DNA of 46,881 nucleotides, taken from assembly GCF_002802985.1 (NCBI RefSeq), contig NZ_NVPT01000017.1, positions 1 through 46,881 of the forward strand, given 5' to 3'. How positions within the stretch are numbered: the stretch's first letter is position 1; each line of letters begins with the position of its first letter. The notes under the pieces are model-generated. The model saw only the letters and a program-made list of their open reading frames with translations, did not search any database and was not told the DNA's origin. Of the stretch, positions 21,093 through 34,107 are shown one piece after another. The DNA is from Geodermatophilus chilensis (GTDB taxonomy: Bacteria > Actinomycetota > Actinomycetes > Mycobacteriales > Geodermatophilaceae). A program made the position numbers and the translations under genes.

Positions 21093-21169
21093 TGGTAGCG
21101 GGGACAGGATTCGAACCTGTGACCTCTGGGTTATGAGCCCAGCGAGCTACCGAGCTGCTCCACCCCGCG
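21093..21169 (-). tRNA. Initiator tRNA-fMet (CAT), copy 1
   Basis: 77 nt including an encoded 3' CCA. The acceptor strand is CGCGGGG opposite CCCCGCT, leaving position 1 unpaired with 72, and the anticodon stem has the three G-C pairs GGG/CCC around CTCATAA; both are marks of initiators. The T stem is ACAGG/CCTGT. A TATGGT box is 11 bases upstream and a strong terminator lies just downstream, so it is its own transcription unit. Confidence 0.97.
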
Positions 21170-22954: not shown

Positions 22955-23031
22955 TGGTAGCGGGGGCAGGATTCGAACCTGCGACCTCTGGGTTATGAGC
23001 CCAGCGAGCTACCGAGCTGCTCCACCCCGCG
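22955..23031 (-). tRNA. Initiator tRNA-fMet (CAT), copy 2
   Basis: 77 nt with encoded CCA. It is identical to copy 1 except in the T stem, where the outer pair is G-C (GCAGG/CCTGC) in place of A-U, a compensatory pair of changes. It has the same unpaired 1-72 and GGG/CCC anticodon stem. The same TATGGT box is 11 bases upstream. Confidence 0.97.
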
Positions 23032-30323: not shown

Positions 30324-31394
30324 GTGGCCGACACCGCACACCCCCTGCTGCCCCCGAGCGTCCCGCTGCTGCGCCTGGCCGGGCCGGACGGCGCCGAGGA
30401 CGTCCAGATCGGCGGCGCCGACTCCACCGACGGACTGCGCGTCTCCCCCGGCACCGCCGCGCTCACCACCCTGTTGCGCGGCCTCGACGGCCGCCGCACG
30501 CAACGCGCCGTCCTCGCCGAGGCGGCAGGCGCCGGCCACGACCCCGCGGCGCTGAGCGCGGTCCTCGACGGCCTGCGGGCCACCGGGCTGCTGGTCGACC
30601 TGCACCCCGGCGACCTGCTGGCCTCCGTCGCCGGGCCGGCCGCCGCCGCCCGCGCGCAGACCGAACTTCCCACCGCCACGGACCGGGACTCCGGCTCCCG
30701 CTGGCGGACCCGGCGGGCCGCGACGGTCGTCGTCGACGGCGCGACGCGGGTCGGCGTGCCGCTCGCCGCCGTGCTGGCCGCGAGCGGCGTGGGCCGGGTG
30801 AGCGTCCGGGACGACGGACTGGTCACGGCCGGGGACGCCGTCGTCGGTGGGCTCGGCGCCGACGACGAGGGCCGCCCGCGCGCGCTGGCCGCCGCCGACG
30901 CCGTGCGCCGCGCCAGCCCGCTCACCGACCTGCGCCCCCTCCCGGCCGGCGCACCGGCCGACCTGGTGGTGCTCACCCGGCCCTGGGCGGCGTCCGACCC
31001 GCTCGCGGCCGACCTGCAGCGGCGCGGGGTGCCGCACCTGGTGGCGACGGTGCGCGGGGAGACCGGCGTGGTGGGGCCCCTGGTCGTGCCCGGCGCGACC
31101 GGCTGCCTGCGCTGCGCGGACCTGCACCGCCGGGACGTCGACCCGCGCTGGCCGGCGCTGGCCGCCCAGCTCACCGCCGGCGAGGCCCCGCCGGGTGGGG
31201 CCACGGTGACCTGCCTGGCGACCGTGGTGACGGCGGCCGTGCAGGTCCTGGCGCTGCTCGACGGCACCGGTGCGCCGCTCACCCTCGGGACGACGCTGGA
31301 GCTCAGCCCGCCGGACCTGCTCCCCCGCACCCGTCGCTGGCCGGCCCACCCCGACTGCGGGTGCCTGCCGGAGAGCGGTGACGGGGTCTCCTGA
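30324..31394 (+). CDS. ThiF/E1-like protein, TOMM leader-binding family
   Basis: 356 aa from the GTG at 30324 (GTG 30303 is possible; no ribosome site is clear for either). The N-terminal third is a winged-helix-like region (TDGLRVSPGTAALTTLLRGL, AALSAVLDGLRATGLLVDL). The E1-like domain follows, but its nucleotide loop is degenerate (VVVDGATRVGVPLAAVLA). A zinc site is formed by GCLRCADLHRRD and the C-terminal DCGCLPE. Proteins of this type are annotated as TOMM precursor leader-binding, yet no precursor peptide or cyclodehydratase is near. It corresponds to mycobacterial Rv3196 in position. Confidence 0.82.
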   Translation: MADTAHPLLPPSVPLLRLAGPDGAEDVQIGGADSTDGLRVSPGTAALTTLLRGLDGRRTQRAVLAEAAGAGHDPAALSAVLDGLRATGLLVDLHPGDLLASVAGPAAAARAQTELPTATDRDSGSRWRTRRAATVVVDGATRVGVPLAAVLAASGVGRVSVRDDGLVTAGDAVVGGLGADDEGRPRALAAADAVRRASPLTDLRPLPAGAPADLVVLTRPWAASDPLAADLQRRGVPHLVATVRGETGVVGPLVVPGATGCLRCADLHRRDVDPRWPALAAQLTAGEAPPGGATVTCLATVVTAAVQVLALLDGTGAPLTLGTTLELSPPDLLPRTRRWPAHPDCGCLPESGDGVS

Positions 31395-31512
31395 TCGCTC
31401 CCTCGGCGGCACCGCCGCCGATCGGGGGACAATGGTCCGCGAGTGCGCCTCCGGGCCCGGACGGGGCCGGTGCCGCCGCGACCGCGGACGACTGAACGCC
31501 GAGGAGGAGTAC

Positions 31513-32835
31513 GTGACCGAGCCTGGTCGGGGGATCCCACGAGGCTCGGTCTCACGGACCGCACGCCTGGCCTCGCTGCCGCTGGGGGCGGCCGGCCGGG
31601 CCACCCTGGGCATCGGCAAGCGGTTGTCCGGTCGCCCCGCCGACGCGGTGAACGCGGAGCTGCAGCAGCGCACCGCCGAGCAGCTGTTCGCCGTCCTGGG
31701 CCAGCTCAAGGGCGGGGCGATGAAGCTCGGGCAGACCCTCTCGGTGTTCGAGGCGGCCGTGCCCGAGGAGGTCGCCGCCCCGTACCGCGAGGCGCTGGTC
31801 AAGCTGCAGGAGGAGGCGCCGCCGATGCCGGCGCGCACCGTCCACGCGGTGCTGGCCCAGCAGCTCGGCGGCACCTGGCGCACCCGCTTCAAGGAGTTCG
31901 ACGACGCGCCGGCGGCCGCGGCCAGCATCGGGCAGGTGCACCGCGCGACCTGGCGGGACGGCCGGGACGTCGCCGTGAAGATCCAGTACCCGGGTGCGGC
32001 CACCGCGTTGATGGCCGACCTCAACCAGCTGGCCCGCTTCGCCCGGCTGTTCGCCGCGCTGTTCCCCGGCATGGACGTCAAGCCGCTGATCACCGAGCTC
32101 AAGGCCCGCGTGGTCGAGGAGCTGGACTACGGCCTGGAGGCCGACGCGCAGCGGACCTTCGCCGCCGCCTACGCCGACGACCCGCAGATCGTCGTCCCCC
32201 GGGTGGTGGCCAGCGCGCCCAAGGTGATCGTCTCCGAGTGGCTCGAGGGGACGCCGCTGTCGAAGGTGATCGCCTCGGGCAGCCGCGAGGAGCGCGACCG
32301 GGCCGGGCATCTGCTCGCCGTGCTGCACTTCTCCGGGCCGCAGCGGGCCGGGCTGCTGCACGCCGACCCCCACCCGGGCAACTTCCGGCTGACCCCCGAC
32401 GGGCGCTTCGGGGTCATCGACTTCGGCGCCACCGCCCGGCTGCCCGACGGACACCCCGAGCCGATCGGCCGGCTGGTGCGCTGGGCCCTGGAGGGCCGGG
32501 CCGAGGACGTGCTGGCCGACCTGCGCACCGAGGGGTTCGTCCGCCCCGGCGTGGAGGTCGACGCGCAGGGGGTGCTCGACTACCTGCGACCGCTGCTGGC
32601 CCCCATCGAGAGCCACCACTTCCACTTCACCCGGGCGTGGATGCAGGAGCAGGCCACCCGGATCGCCGATCCCCGGACCGAGGCCAACCGGCTCGGCCGG
32701 ATGCTCAACCTGCCGCCGGCCTACCTGCTCATCCACCGGGTGACCATCGGGTCGATCGGCGTGCTCTGCCAGCTCGACGCGGCCGACGACTACCGCAGCG
32801 TGCTCGAGGAGTGGCTCCCCGGCTTCACCACCTGA
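31513..32835 (+). CDS. ABC1/UbiB-family atypical protein kinase
   Basis: 440 aa. ADCK/UbiB hallmarks are the KxGQ motif in LKGGAMKLGQTLS, the Ala-rich loop AAAASIGQVHRA in place of a Gly loop, VAVKIQYPG with the catalytic Lys, LLHADPHPGNF as catalytic loop and VIDFGATARL as metal-binding DFG. In other bacteria the family supports quinone synthesis; in actinobacteria it may act on menaquinone or lipids. The GTG has GAGGAGGAG upstream. It corresponds to mycobacterial Rv3197, next to whiB7. A bidirectional terminator follows. Confidence 0.93.
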   Translation: MTEPGRGIPRGSVSRTARLASLPLGAAGRATLGIGKRLSGRPADAVNAELQQRTAEQLFAVLGQLKGGAMKLGQTLSVFEAAVPEEVAAPYREALVKLQEEAPPMPARTVHAVLAQQLGGTWRTRFKEFDDAPAAAASIGQVHRATWRDGRDVAVKIQYPGAATALMADLNQLARFARLFAALFPGMDVKPLITELKARVVEELDYGLEADAQRTFAAAYADDPQIVVPRVVASAPKVIVSEWLEGTPLSKVIASGSREERDRAGHLLAVLHFSGPQRAGLLHADPHPGNFRLTPDGRFGVIDFGATARLPDGHPEPIGRLVRWALEGRAEDVLADLRTEGFVRPGVEVDAQGVLDYLRPLLAPIESHHFHFTRAWMQEQATRIADPRTEANRLGRMLNLPPAYLLIHRVTIGSIGVLCQLDAADDYRSVLEEWLPGFTT

Positions 32836-32927: not shown

Positions 32928-33092
32928 TCAGCGGACGGCGGCGCTGGCCCGAGCCGCACGCCGCGCGGCGTACTCGGCGCGGCGGGCCCAGCGGCGGGCG
33001 GCACGCAATCGGCGGGCGCGTGCCGCGGCGTCGGCCTCGGCGCGCAGGTCGCGCAACCGGTCGACGGCCAGGTCGTACTCGAAGCTGTACAT
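32928..33092 (-). CDS. Very basic 54-residue protein downstream of whiB7
   Basis: 54 aa: MYSFEYDLAVDRLRDL, then an Arg/Ala-rich amphipathic helix (RARRLRAARRWARRAEYAAR). GAGGA is seven bases before the ATG, and the start is nine bases after the whiB7 stop, so it shares the whiB7 transcript. I recognise no family. The strongly positive helix suggests nucleic-acid or ribosome binding, or simply a small Arg-rich protein; no membrane segment is present. It could be relevant to the antibiotic response because of its position. Confidence 0.65.
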   Translation of the reverse strand: MYSFEYDLAVDRLRDLRAEADAAARARRLRAARRWARRAEYAARRAARASAAVR

Positions 33093-33101
33093 GTCAGGTC
33101 C

Positions 33102-33515
33102 TCACGTCGTCGTGGGCGGTCTACTCACCGGCGGCCTGTTGCCGGCGACTCGCTCGGCTCGGCCGGCTCCCTGCAGGGGGTCCTTCTCCTTGCGGGGGCG
33201 ACCGCGCGGGCGCTTGCGCGGGATGACCACACCCCGCTCGAAGATCTCCCCGCCCCAGACGCCCCACGGCTCGCCGCGGCGCAGCGCACCGGCCAGGCAG
33301 GCGTCACGCACCGGGCACTCCGCGCAGCGGACCTTGGCCTCCTCCAGCCCGGCCGGGGTCTCGGCGAACCACAGGTCCGGGTCGGTTCGGCACGGCAGGG
33401 GGCGCCGCACCGGCGCCGGCGCCGGCGGGGGCGCCGGCCGTCGGGGAAGGGAGCCGCCGGTCCGGGGGAGCCCGGTTCGGCGGTGGGACGTCGGACGGTC
33501 GGCCGTCGACTGCAC
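33102..33515 (-). CDS. whiB7: WhiB7 transcriptional regulator of intrinsic drug resistance
   Basis: 137 aa. The four cluster ligands are in LPCRTDPDLWF, VRCAECPVRDACLAGAL; the turn GEPWGVWGGE and the AT-hook KRPRGRPRK follow, the hook being the mark of WhiB7. With its 4Fe-4S cluster it binds the primary sigma factor and activates resistance genes, including its own, on AT-rich sites next to -35 boxes. The GTG at 33515 has GGAGGAG six bases upstream. The C-terminal tail (EKDPLQGAG onward) is encoded by part of the hairpin repeat. Position between ABC1 kinase and uvrD2 equals mycobacterial Rv3197A. Expression is likely controlled by the attenuation-type leader described separately. Confidence 0.95.
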   Translation of the reverse strand: MQSTADRPTSHRRTGLPRTGGSLPRRPAPPPAPAPVRRPLPCRTDPDLWFAETPAGLEEAKVRCAECPVRDACLAGALRRGEPWGVWGGEIFERGVVIPRKRPRGRPRKEKDPLQGAGRAERVAGNRPPVSRPPTTT

Positions 33516-33654
33516 TGCCGCTCCTCCTCGTACTCGTCGTCTGCGACCGGCGGGGGCCCGCCGACCGGGAGTCGGGGCGGGTGCCGCGGCGGAGATGAGA
33601 GAGGCCGCGGAACCCGGTTCGGGTTCCGCGGCCTCGAGGAGGTCCTGTCGAGCG
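33516..33654 (-). promoter_or_regulatory. whiB7 leader: terminator and competing hairpins
   Basis: On the minus-strand RNA a perfect 15-bp stem (plus 33601-33615 with 33621-33635, loop of five) is followed by a U-rich stretch CTCTCATCTC, an intrinsic terminator upstream of whiB7. Just before it, a 6-bp hairpin (33648-33653 with 33658-33663) contains the TAG stop of the upstream ORF in its loop. The word CTCGAG at 33659-33664 can pair either in that hairpin or with CTCGAG at 33633-33638, which overlaps the terminator arm. So the folds are mutually exclusive, as attenuation requires. Confidence 0.7.
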
Positions 33655-33978
33655 CTAGCTCGAGGGTCTGCCCGAGGAGTGGATCCCGAGAGTGGTGCCG
33701 TTGTGCTCGGTGGTGCGCTTGGCGGTCTGCCCCGCGTAGCCCGCGGTGCCGAAGAGGCCGGCGGTGCCGAAGACGCCGATCGCCGGGGCGACGGAGACGC
33801 CGGTGCCGATCAGGTCGAGACCGGGGACACGGGTGCCGGGACGCTGGGCGACGGGGGTCGCCGGGACGGCGCGCAGGCGCGCGGCGACGGGCGACTCGAC
33901 GCAGGCAGCCGTGCGCACGGCGAGACCCACCGGGCCACGGGCCCCGGCGGGGGCGAGGGTCCACATCGTGCTGATCAC
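33655..33978 (-). CDS. Upstream ORF in the whiB7 leader
   Basis: 107 aa from the GTG at 33978, eight bases after GGAGGAGG (a GTG at 33987 is too close). It starts MISTMWTLAPAGARG and includes GVFGTAGLFGTAGYAGQTAK. It matches no family I know. It lies between the whiB7 promoter and the terminator, and its stop codon is inside a leader hairpin, so ribosome stalling here should alter the RNA fold. It may be purely regulatory; the good ribosome site and long frame leave room for a functional peptide. Mycobacterial whiB7 also has an upstream ORF, generally shorter. Confidence 0.6.
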   Translation of the reverse strand: MISTMWTLAPAGARGPVGLAVRTAACVESPVAARLRAVPATPVAQRPGTRVPGLDLIGTGVSVAPAIGVFGTAGLFGTAGYAGQTAKRTTEHNGTTLGIHSSGRPSS

Positions 33979-34066
33979 GTCGCCCACCTCCTCCGGGGGT
34001 CGGACCGCGGCCGTGCGGCCGGTCTCAGGTCTGGCGCGCTCGAGGTGTCTCCCGAGCGCGATCAGG

Positions 34067-34107
34067 ACAGTAGGGGGCCGCCGCGGAGGCGGTCAACGCA
34101 ATTAGCC
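34067..34107 (-). promoter_or_regulatory. whiB7 promoter with AT-rich WhiB7 site
   Basis: On the minus strand, TTGACC (34091-34096) and TACTGT (34067-34072) are separated by 18 bp. Directly upstream of the -35 is GGCTAATTGCG (34097-34107), an AT-rich patch that is rare in this genome. WhiB7 is known to contact AT-rich DNA just upstream of -35 boxes through its AT-hook, so autoregulation is likely. Confidence 0.7.

Follow-up and report, generated by a model that had tools for sequence, protein, structure and literature searches.

The DNA upstream of whiB7 in Geodermatophilus chilensis raises the question of why this gene is preceded by a leader with an upstream open reading frame (uORF) of 107 codons, and what in that frame matters. 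We analysed a window of 46,881 nucleotides, the whole stretch of DNA under study, and compared its whiB7 leader with those of the family and of other members of the class. The gene 3' of the leader is whiB7, as indicated by the Pfam Whib domain and an AT-hook, RGRPRK, C-terminal of it in the translation; the product had no match in NCBIfam.

Anatomy of the whiB7 leader

All elements could be read directly from the minus strand, in the order that the original prediction had claimed, from the AT-rich site to the terminator:

34100 to 34104, minus strand: AT-rich element TAATT just 5' of the -35 hexamer, resembling the TTAATT-like consensus of family leaders, which we take to be a WhiB7 site
34091 to 34096, minus strand: -35 hexamer TTGACC, from sequence and conservation
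34067 to 34072, minus strand: -10 hexamer TACTGT, 18-nt spacer to the -35 hexamer, from sequence and conservation
33987 to 33994, minus strand: uORF Shine-Dalgarno site GGAGGAGG, 8 nt 5' of the GTG
33655 to 33978, minus strand: uORF of 107 codons, GTG start at 33978, TAG stop at 33657-33655, from the ORF translation
33658 to 33689, minus strand: antiterminator 5' strand (final uORF codons), from predicted fold and covariation
33655 to 33657, minus strand: TAG stop of the uORF, apical loop of the predicted antiterminator
33619 to 33653, minus strand: 3' strand of the predicted antiterminator, shared in part with the terminator 5' arm
33601 to 33635, minus strand: intrinsic terminator hairpin of perfect 15 bp, stem GAGGCCGCGGAACCC / GGGTTCCGCGGCCTC, -35.1 kcal/mol
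33591 to 33600, minus strand: weak pyrimidine/U tail TCTCATCTCC
33521 to 33529, minus strand: whiB7 Shine-Dalgarno site, read from the sequence
33102 to 33515, minus strand: whiB7 coding sequence with C-terminal AT-hook (Pfam Whib, E 1.8e-13)

The TTGACC and TACTGT hexamers 18 bp apart (34096-34067) and the ribosome site GGAGGAGG (33994-33987), which had been pointed out before, are all present. A generic sigma-70 scan did not find the promoter of the whiB7 leader; its assignment rests on conservation across the family: among 98 family leaders examined, 85 fit the promoter pattern, and all 85 of these carry TTGACC with the TTAATT-like consensus 5' of it. An alternative upstream GTG at 33987 would extend the uORF to 110 codons and overlaps its Shine-Dalgarno site.

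Comparison of leaders

We examined 252 loci, consisting of 90 whiB7 loci of the family and 162 further loci (6 among the matches listed in a contig search of named relatives, 29 from a class search, 27 from an order search and 100 taken by coordinates), the latter including some family members or repeats. The whiB7 coding sequence had matches at E <= 0.001 in all 112 family genomes. The best whiB7 match was only 5e-6 to 4e-9 in five of them (G068, G069, G072, G074 and G098), and these matches are probably other Wbl genes.

A fixed rule was applied to all loci: a terminator hairpin 5' of whiB7, together with a Shine-Dalgarno-preceded ORF of at least 40 codons that ends 9-32 nt before the terminator. 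This arrangement was found in 222 of the 252 loci. The other 30 were dropped for having no terminator by the scan or no uORF of at least 40 codons ending at that distance; L076 and L085, two of the dropped loci, nevertheless carry uORFs. The 222 loci gave 212 distinct uORF peptides, 98 from the family and 114 from others, where the 114 (and the 67 left after thinning) include one family locus, L244 of genome G070. The family alignment consisted of 45 leaders thinned for similarity.

A uORF of at least 60 codons, preceded by the Shine-Dalgarno site that the rule demanded and ending about 130-170 nt 5' of the whiB7 start, was present in 89 of the 90 family loci, and the sole exception, L034, is interrupted by a contig end. 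The occurrence of such a frame before whiB7 is thus not due to chance.

Mutually exclusive hairpins at the end of the uORF

The perfect 15-bp terminator with a pyrimidine tail, as originally predicted, was recovered at 33635-33601, albeit with a weak tail. A generic terminator scan did not list this hairpin, in our reading because its tail has 4 T in 8 bases and 5 are demanded. The region from 33720 to 33590 folds with -57.4 kcal/mol, compared with -40.9 +/- 3.9 kcal/mol in 200 shuffled sequences, none of which equalled it (z -4.2). In the 45 family leaders, 99.1% of the cells of the terminator stem are paired and 12 of the 15 pairs are invariant; a stem so close to invariant yields no covariation.

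The alternative structure was predicted by folding the last 45 nt of the uORF with its stop codon and the DNA 3' of it as far as the terminator midpoint. In the window, the predicted antiterminator runs from 33689 to 33619: TCGGG-A-TCC pairs with GGA-A-CCCGA, followed by CCTCGGG-(C)-AG with CT-(C)-CTCGAGG, and the tip is CTCGAGC-TAGC-GCTCGA. The hairpin CGAGC-TAGC-GCTCG within this tip holds the stop codon in its loop, just as the original prediction stated. Because the antiterminator takes up most of the terminator 5' arm, the two structures are mutually exclusive.

A predicted fold that encloses the stop codon with at least 8 pairs was obtained for all 212 distinct leaders (98 family, 114 others), a threshold that is lax by itself, as control 5' arms from elsewhere in the same uORF also pass it in 73-79 of 98 family leaders and 78-96 of 97-114 others. 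The antiterminators have a median of 26 pairs in the family and 23.5 in the others, with means of -41.5 and -40.4 kcal/mol; for the control arms the values were 13-16 pairs and -28.7 to -33.8 kcal/mol. When arms were swapped between species among the thinned leaders, own arms paired better in 31 of 45 family leaders (p 8e-4) and in 64 of 67 leaders from other lineages (p 7e-12), both p values ignoring relatedness. The compensatory pattern was also visible in the letters: of the 212 leaders, 61 could be classified, and in these 5' TGGAG occurred with 3' CTCCA in 24 and with CTCGA in 2, and 5' TCGAG with CTCCA in 0 and with CTCGA in 35.

The alignment of 45 family leaders gave a similar picture. 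With the structure taken from one aligned leader, which biases the comparison in its favour over slid versions, 82.1% of the antiterminator cells were paired, and at most 57.1% in the slid versions. Cells with double changes numbered 24, compared with 8.8 after shuffling. The number of pair types in this alignment showed no excess (20, compared with 21.0 in shuffles). Taken together, the folding predictions and compensatory changes indicate that a single long antiterminator, common to the sampled class, has the stop-in-loop hairpin as its tip. The design had been thought distinct to this locus; its prediction in all 212 filtered leaders, with compensatory changes, speaks against that. The stop codon in the loop of a class-shared antiterminator is one of three points that the comparison of 212 leaders brings out, the others being the drift of the uORF peptide and two short signals within it.

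The original prediction had further placed the alternative pairing in CTCGAG. Both copies do exist in the window (33664-33659 and 33638-33633), but their pairing is not conserved, and we rejected it: the first copy is limited to 6 of the 98 family leaders and is absent from all 114 others. Unlike in that proposal, the conserved antiterminator pairs a segment farther upstream (33689-33671) with the terminator 5' arm.

The antiterminator of the window, at -36.0 kcal/mol, is weaker than those of three near relatives (-42.9 to -43.8 kcal/mol). At equilibrium the terminator fold of the full region is the more stable one (-57.4 kcal/mol), so the antiterminator would have to win kinetically.

Could whiB7 instead be controlled chiefly at translation, by masking of its Shine-Dalgarno site rather than by termination? 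The tlrB and vmlR antibiotic leaders mix both modes, according to the accessible part of PMC12288461. Here, however, the conserved alternative folds centre on the 15-bp terminator, which ends 71 nt 5' of the whiB7 Shine-Dalgarno site and has a nearly invariant stem; we consider control chiefly by masking very improbable.

A known attenuator and its proposed operation

Burian and Thompson in 2018 and Lee, Lee and Roe in 2022 reportedly described a uORF-dependent attenuator of whiB7/wblC. In the portions accessible, transcription attenuation by a uORF at whiB7/wblC is described in a review (PMC11550727) and in PMC13236596, PMC13393426, PMC10727445 (mycobacteria) and PMC12421871 (Streptomyces). 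The features of that system are found here as well: a WhiB7 gene downstream, a Shine-Dalgarno-preceded uORF in a long leader, an antiterminator that overlaps the uORF end and shares sequence with the terminator, and a Rho-independent terminator before whiB7. The locus differs from the described ones in its sequence alone, as the uORF length and the stop-in-loop hairpin lie inside the range of the class. We are therefore highly confident that this Geodermatophilus locus holds the uORF transcription attenuator known from whiB7/wblC. The antibiotic-sensing RNA switch that this soil actinobacterium has ahead of its resistance regulator whiB7 is thus of a standard kind, and as a discovery it is ordinary.

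From this anatomy and the conserved alternative folds we infer translation, stalling and drug response as follows. The promoter with its AT-rich element 5' of the -35 hexamer, judging from the conserved sequence, would produce a leader of about 545 nt, on which a ribosome would translate the uORF of about 107 codons behind RNA polymerase. As prediction and covariation show, the long antiterminator hairpin is formed by the terminator 5' arm together with the final uORF codons and their stop codon. A ribosome that reaches the stop codon would open the antiterminator, allowing the terminator to form and transcription to end near 33600. If a ribosome were stopped anywhere before that point, whether by a drug or by lack of an amino acid, or had never loaded, the antiterminator would form first and whiB7 would be transcribed. 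That stalled ribosomes on the ORF prevent termination had been part of the original prediction, and the agreement of the anatomy with the published mechanism, as far as the accessible texts describe it, supports this attenuator reading.

A uORF kept in length while its peptide drifts

The uORF had been called unusually long. In the family the length ranges from 63 to 132 codons with a median of 102, and 29 of 98 uORFs have at least 107 codons; in other class members it ranges from 43 to 172 with a median of 84, and 20 of 114 reach 107, where the counts cover uORFs of 40 or more codons and this floor trims the lower end of the range. The 107 codons of the window are thus ordinary.

The long frame could alternatively encode a small protein that is functional, conserved and transcribed together with whiB7, and attenuation would then be incidental. 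A long Shine-Dalgarno-preceded frame, codon-like composition (uORF GC3 0.91) and alike N-terminal (MISTTWT-like) and C-terminal ends would suit such a protein. However, in 83 close family pairs, which are mutually non-independent, dN/dS was 1.01 for the uORF body and 1.07 for its N-terminal codons, compared with 0.27 for the first 110 codons of whiB7. Moreover, the uORF product has no match in Pfam or NCBIfam, and the antiterminator RNA accounts for the conservation of the C-terminal end. A functional small protein is accordingly a very unlikely explanation. By these substitution rates, the uORF peptide shows no detectable purifying selection in the family; length is kept, not identity. The frame of the attenuator uORF stays open as its peptide drifts freely, which suits a runway better than a protein.

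Tandem-like repeats of Gly-Thr-Gly/Asp-Val-Phe codons lengthen the middles of the uORFs of L015, L021, L023 and L024 and of the window (33807-33730), and changes in runway length probably stem from them. The uORF bodies of the 212 leaders are rich in threonine (12.4% in the family and 9.5% in the others, compared with 4.4% in flanking ORFs) and poor in glutamate and leucine. Rfam contained no family for the leader: its matches in the window were tRNAs only, and two weak leader matches fell far under the gathering scores.

Arg-X-Arg in the uORF peptide

The peptide drifts, yet two short signals resist the drift. The first is a pair of basic residues separated by one residue (Arg/Lys-X-Arg/Lys), a motif known for macrolide arrest, represented in the window by:

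33871 to 33879, minus strand: Arg-Leu-Arg, uORF codons 34-36, candidate macrolide-arrest motif by its recurrence in the family

With the last 18 codons of each uORF removed, 92 of 98 family bodies contain Arg/Lys-X-Arg/Lys (33 +/- 4.5 in shuffles), and 58 of 98 contain Arg-Leu-Arg (2.2 in shuffles). Other spacings were not enriched in the family bodies, with 32 against 28.9 shuffled for adjacent arginines, 14 against 28.3 for R-x-x-R and 28 against 27.6 for R-x-x-x-R. Taking one uORF per cluster of 60% identity, the motif remained in 39 of 44, with 13.9 expected, and against real protein windows matched for arginine and lysine content it was found in 90 of 96 family uORFs, with 60.9 expected. 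Arginines were retained between relatives in 66% of cases inside R-x-R and in 50% elsewhere, comparisons that are not mutually independent, and the codons changed alike (50% and 49%).

In other lineages, R-x-R was strongly enriched over shuffled peptides (56 of 114, compared with 27.3). Against matched protein windows the enrichment of Arg/Lys-X-Arg/Lys was weak (53 of 78, compared with 46.4), and we therefore set aside a class-wide enrichment and claim it for the family only.

As far as the accessible text of PMC8298421 goes, the ErmDL leader peptide arrests the ribosome at Arg-Leu-Arg with erythromycin and with telithromycin; the motif is essential for the latter and dispensable for the former, and not every Arg/Lys-X-Arg/Lys stalls. 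Both leaders have Arg-Leu-Arg within a regulatory uORF. They differ in that ErmDL, as that text describes, controls ermD by mRNA refolding with the motif at residues 6-8, whereas the motif of the whiB7 uORF lies at codons 34-36 of 107, its output would be termination, and its arrest is a candidate put forward from sequence. The retained Arg/Lys-X-Arg/Lys is probably a stopping place for macrolide-bound ribosomes. According to an accessible passage of PMC12121999 (2025), whether antibiotics stall ribosomes in the whiB7 uORF has yet to be tested, and the Arg-X-Arg sites indicate where to look for macrolide stalling in it.

A pause-like element within the uORF

The second signal is an element GG[GC]AC[CG]-NNT-NTG-[CT]CC inside the uORF, located in the family between codons 20 and 68 and 127-262 nt 5' of the terminator. 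The leader of a relative has it in the intact form GGGGACCGGTCTGCCC; the window has two degenerate copies:

33823 to 33837, minus strand: first degenerate copy GGCACCCGTGTCCCC, T kept at -3, C at +1
33793 to 33807, minus strand: second degenerate copy GGCACCGGCGTCTCC, the best profile match in the window, no T at -3, C at +1

In peptide terms the element reads GTx[LVM][SP], which we rejected as a peptide signal: residue x varies and the T in the third position of its codon stays. The NNT codon specifies Gly, Arg, Ala, Ser or Thr, yet it ends in T in 62 of 68 family instances and 25 of 27 others, compared with 13% (1318/9890) of comparable uORF codons. Where the same peptide pattern occurs in long flanking ORFs outside the uORF, this base is C in 13 of 13 cases and T in none; in the uORF region it is T in 8 of 9. 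Between relatives, the T of the motif is retained in 72% of cases, T elsewhere in 21% and C elsewhere in 72%. A third-position T kept under a varying residue points to a constraint on the nucleotides.

The consensus of elemental pausing by RNA polymerase has G at -11 and T at -3 as well as three further bases. These are G at -10, a pyrimidine at -1 and G at +1 in the accessible part of PMC12288461. All five bases were present in 57 of 73 family instances and 26 of 31 other instances of the motif; both copies in the window deviate from the pattern by the C at +1. No clear copy was found in 21 of 98 family leaders and 81 of 114 others. In these leaders the longer YCC pattern was in excess (9 against 2.8 in the family and 26 against 7.4 in the others), and the short pause consensus was not (8 against 8.2 and 39 against 35.1). 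By its resemblance to the consensus, the element is a candidate for an RNA-polymerase-pause-like signal.

We give slightly better than even chances to a different reading, in which GGnACnnnTnTGYCC is not an RNA polymerase pause but serves for binding, for pairing with RNA or as a signal at the level of the ribosome. In frame 0 lie 35 of 37 profile matches from other lineages, which common descent explains equally well, and in some leaders the element is a perfect complement of the antiterminator 3' arm. Furthermore, pause sites of Mycobacterium tuberculosis located 200-500 nt after the start had no strong consensus motif in the accessible part of PMC10937400, where the polymerase is described as resuming once coupled to a ribosome. 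Against this reading, a peptide motif is contradicted by the varying codon that keeps its third-position T. Pairing is not general: its mean rank over 93 leaders was 0.40, where 0 is best and 0.5 is chance, and the mean best score was 19.0, compared with 16.4 for other uORF segments. Pairing with downstream arms, seen in some leaders, was consequently rejected as a general property.

The pause-like reading has a parallel in Bacillus. In the tlrB leader, as the accessible part of PMC12288461 describes, a polymerase pause buys time for translation of the leader peptide before the decision. The pauses of vmlR and tlrB are given there as NusG-dependent with a T-rich motif, whereas the candidate element of the whiB7 uORF is rich in G and C, similar to the elemental pause consensus and degenerate in the window. 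No pause in a whiB7 leader is described in the accessible literature on whiB7, pausing and uORFs, a body of text that excludes the main primary papers.

Seven leaders of one family (f21: L098, L103-L107 and L119) have the peptide TGEVRP where the usual element would stand. In L098, L103, L106 and L107 the DNA there is ACGGG[T/A]GAAGTGCGTCCG, which also reads as a pause consensus.

Putting both signals together, the uORF might be a neutral runway in which an Arg-X-Arg arrest at the peptide level makes macrolide-bound ribosomes stall and a polymerase pause, constrained at synonymous sites, holds the polymerase until the first ribosome is aboard. We hold this combined reading only tentatively and regard it as rather unlikely as a whole; the pause sites of M. 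tuberculosis lowered our estimate, which the cleaner control for T in flanking ORFs partly offset. If true, it would account for the sensing of sequence-selective as well as general translation inhibitors by a single uORF, and the pause-like element hints at a way in which polymerase and ribosome might stay in step.

Genes around whiB7

The gene convergent with whiB7 (31375-32832, plus strand) scored 534 bits to the NCBIfam model "macrolide-binding ATPase MABP-1", below its cut-off of 800, and its product has an ABC1 kinase-like domain; a link of this adjoining gene to the macrolide response is possible. Directly 3' of whiB7 lies an Arg/Ala-rich ORF of 54 residues (32928-33092, minus strand). 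By tblastn at E <= 1e-3 it was present in 23 of the 90 family loci, one of these being that of the window, and in 6 of the 162 further loci. It may be a small protein encoded on the whiB7 transcript. Elsewhere in the window, a pair of tRNA-Met (CAT) genes is located at 21093-21169 and 22955-23031 on the minus strand, about 1.8 kb apart.
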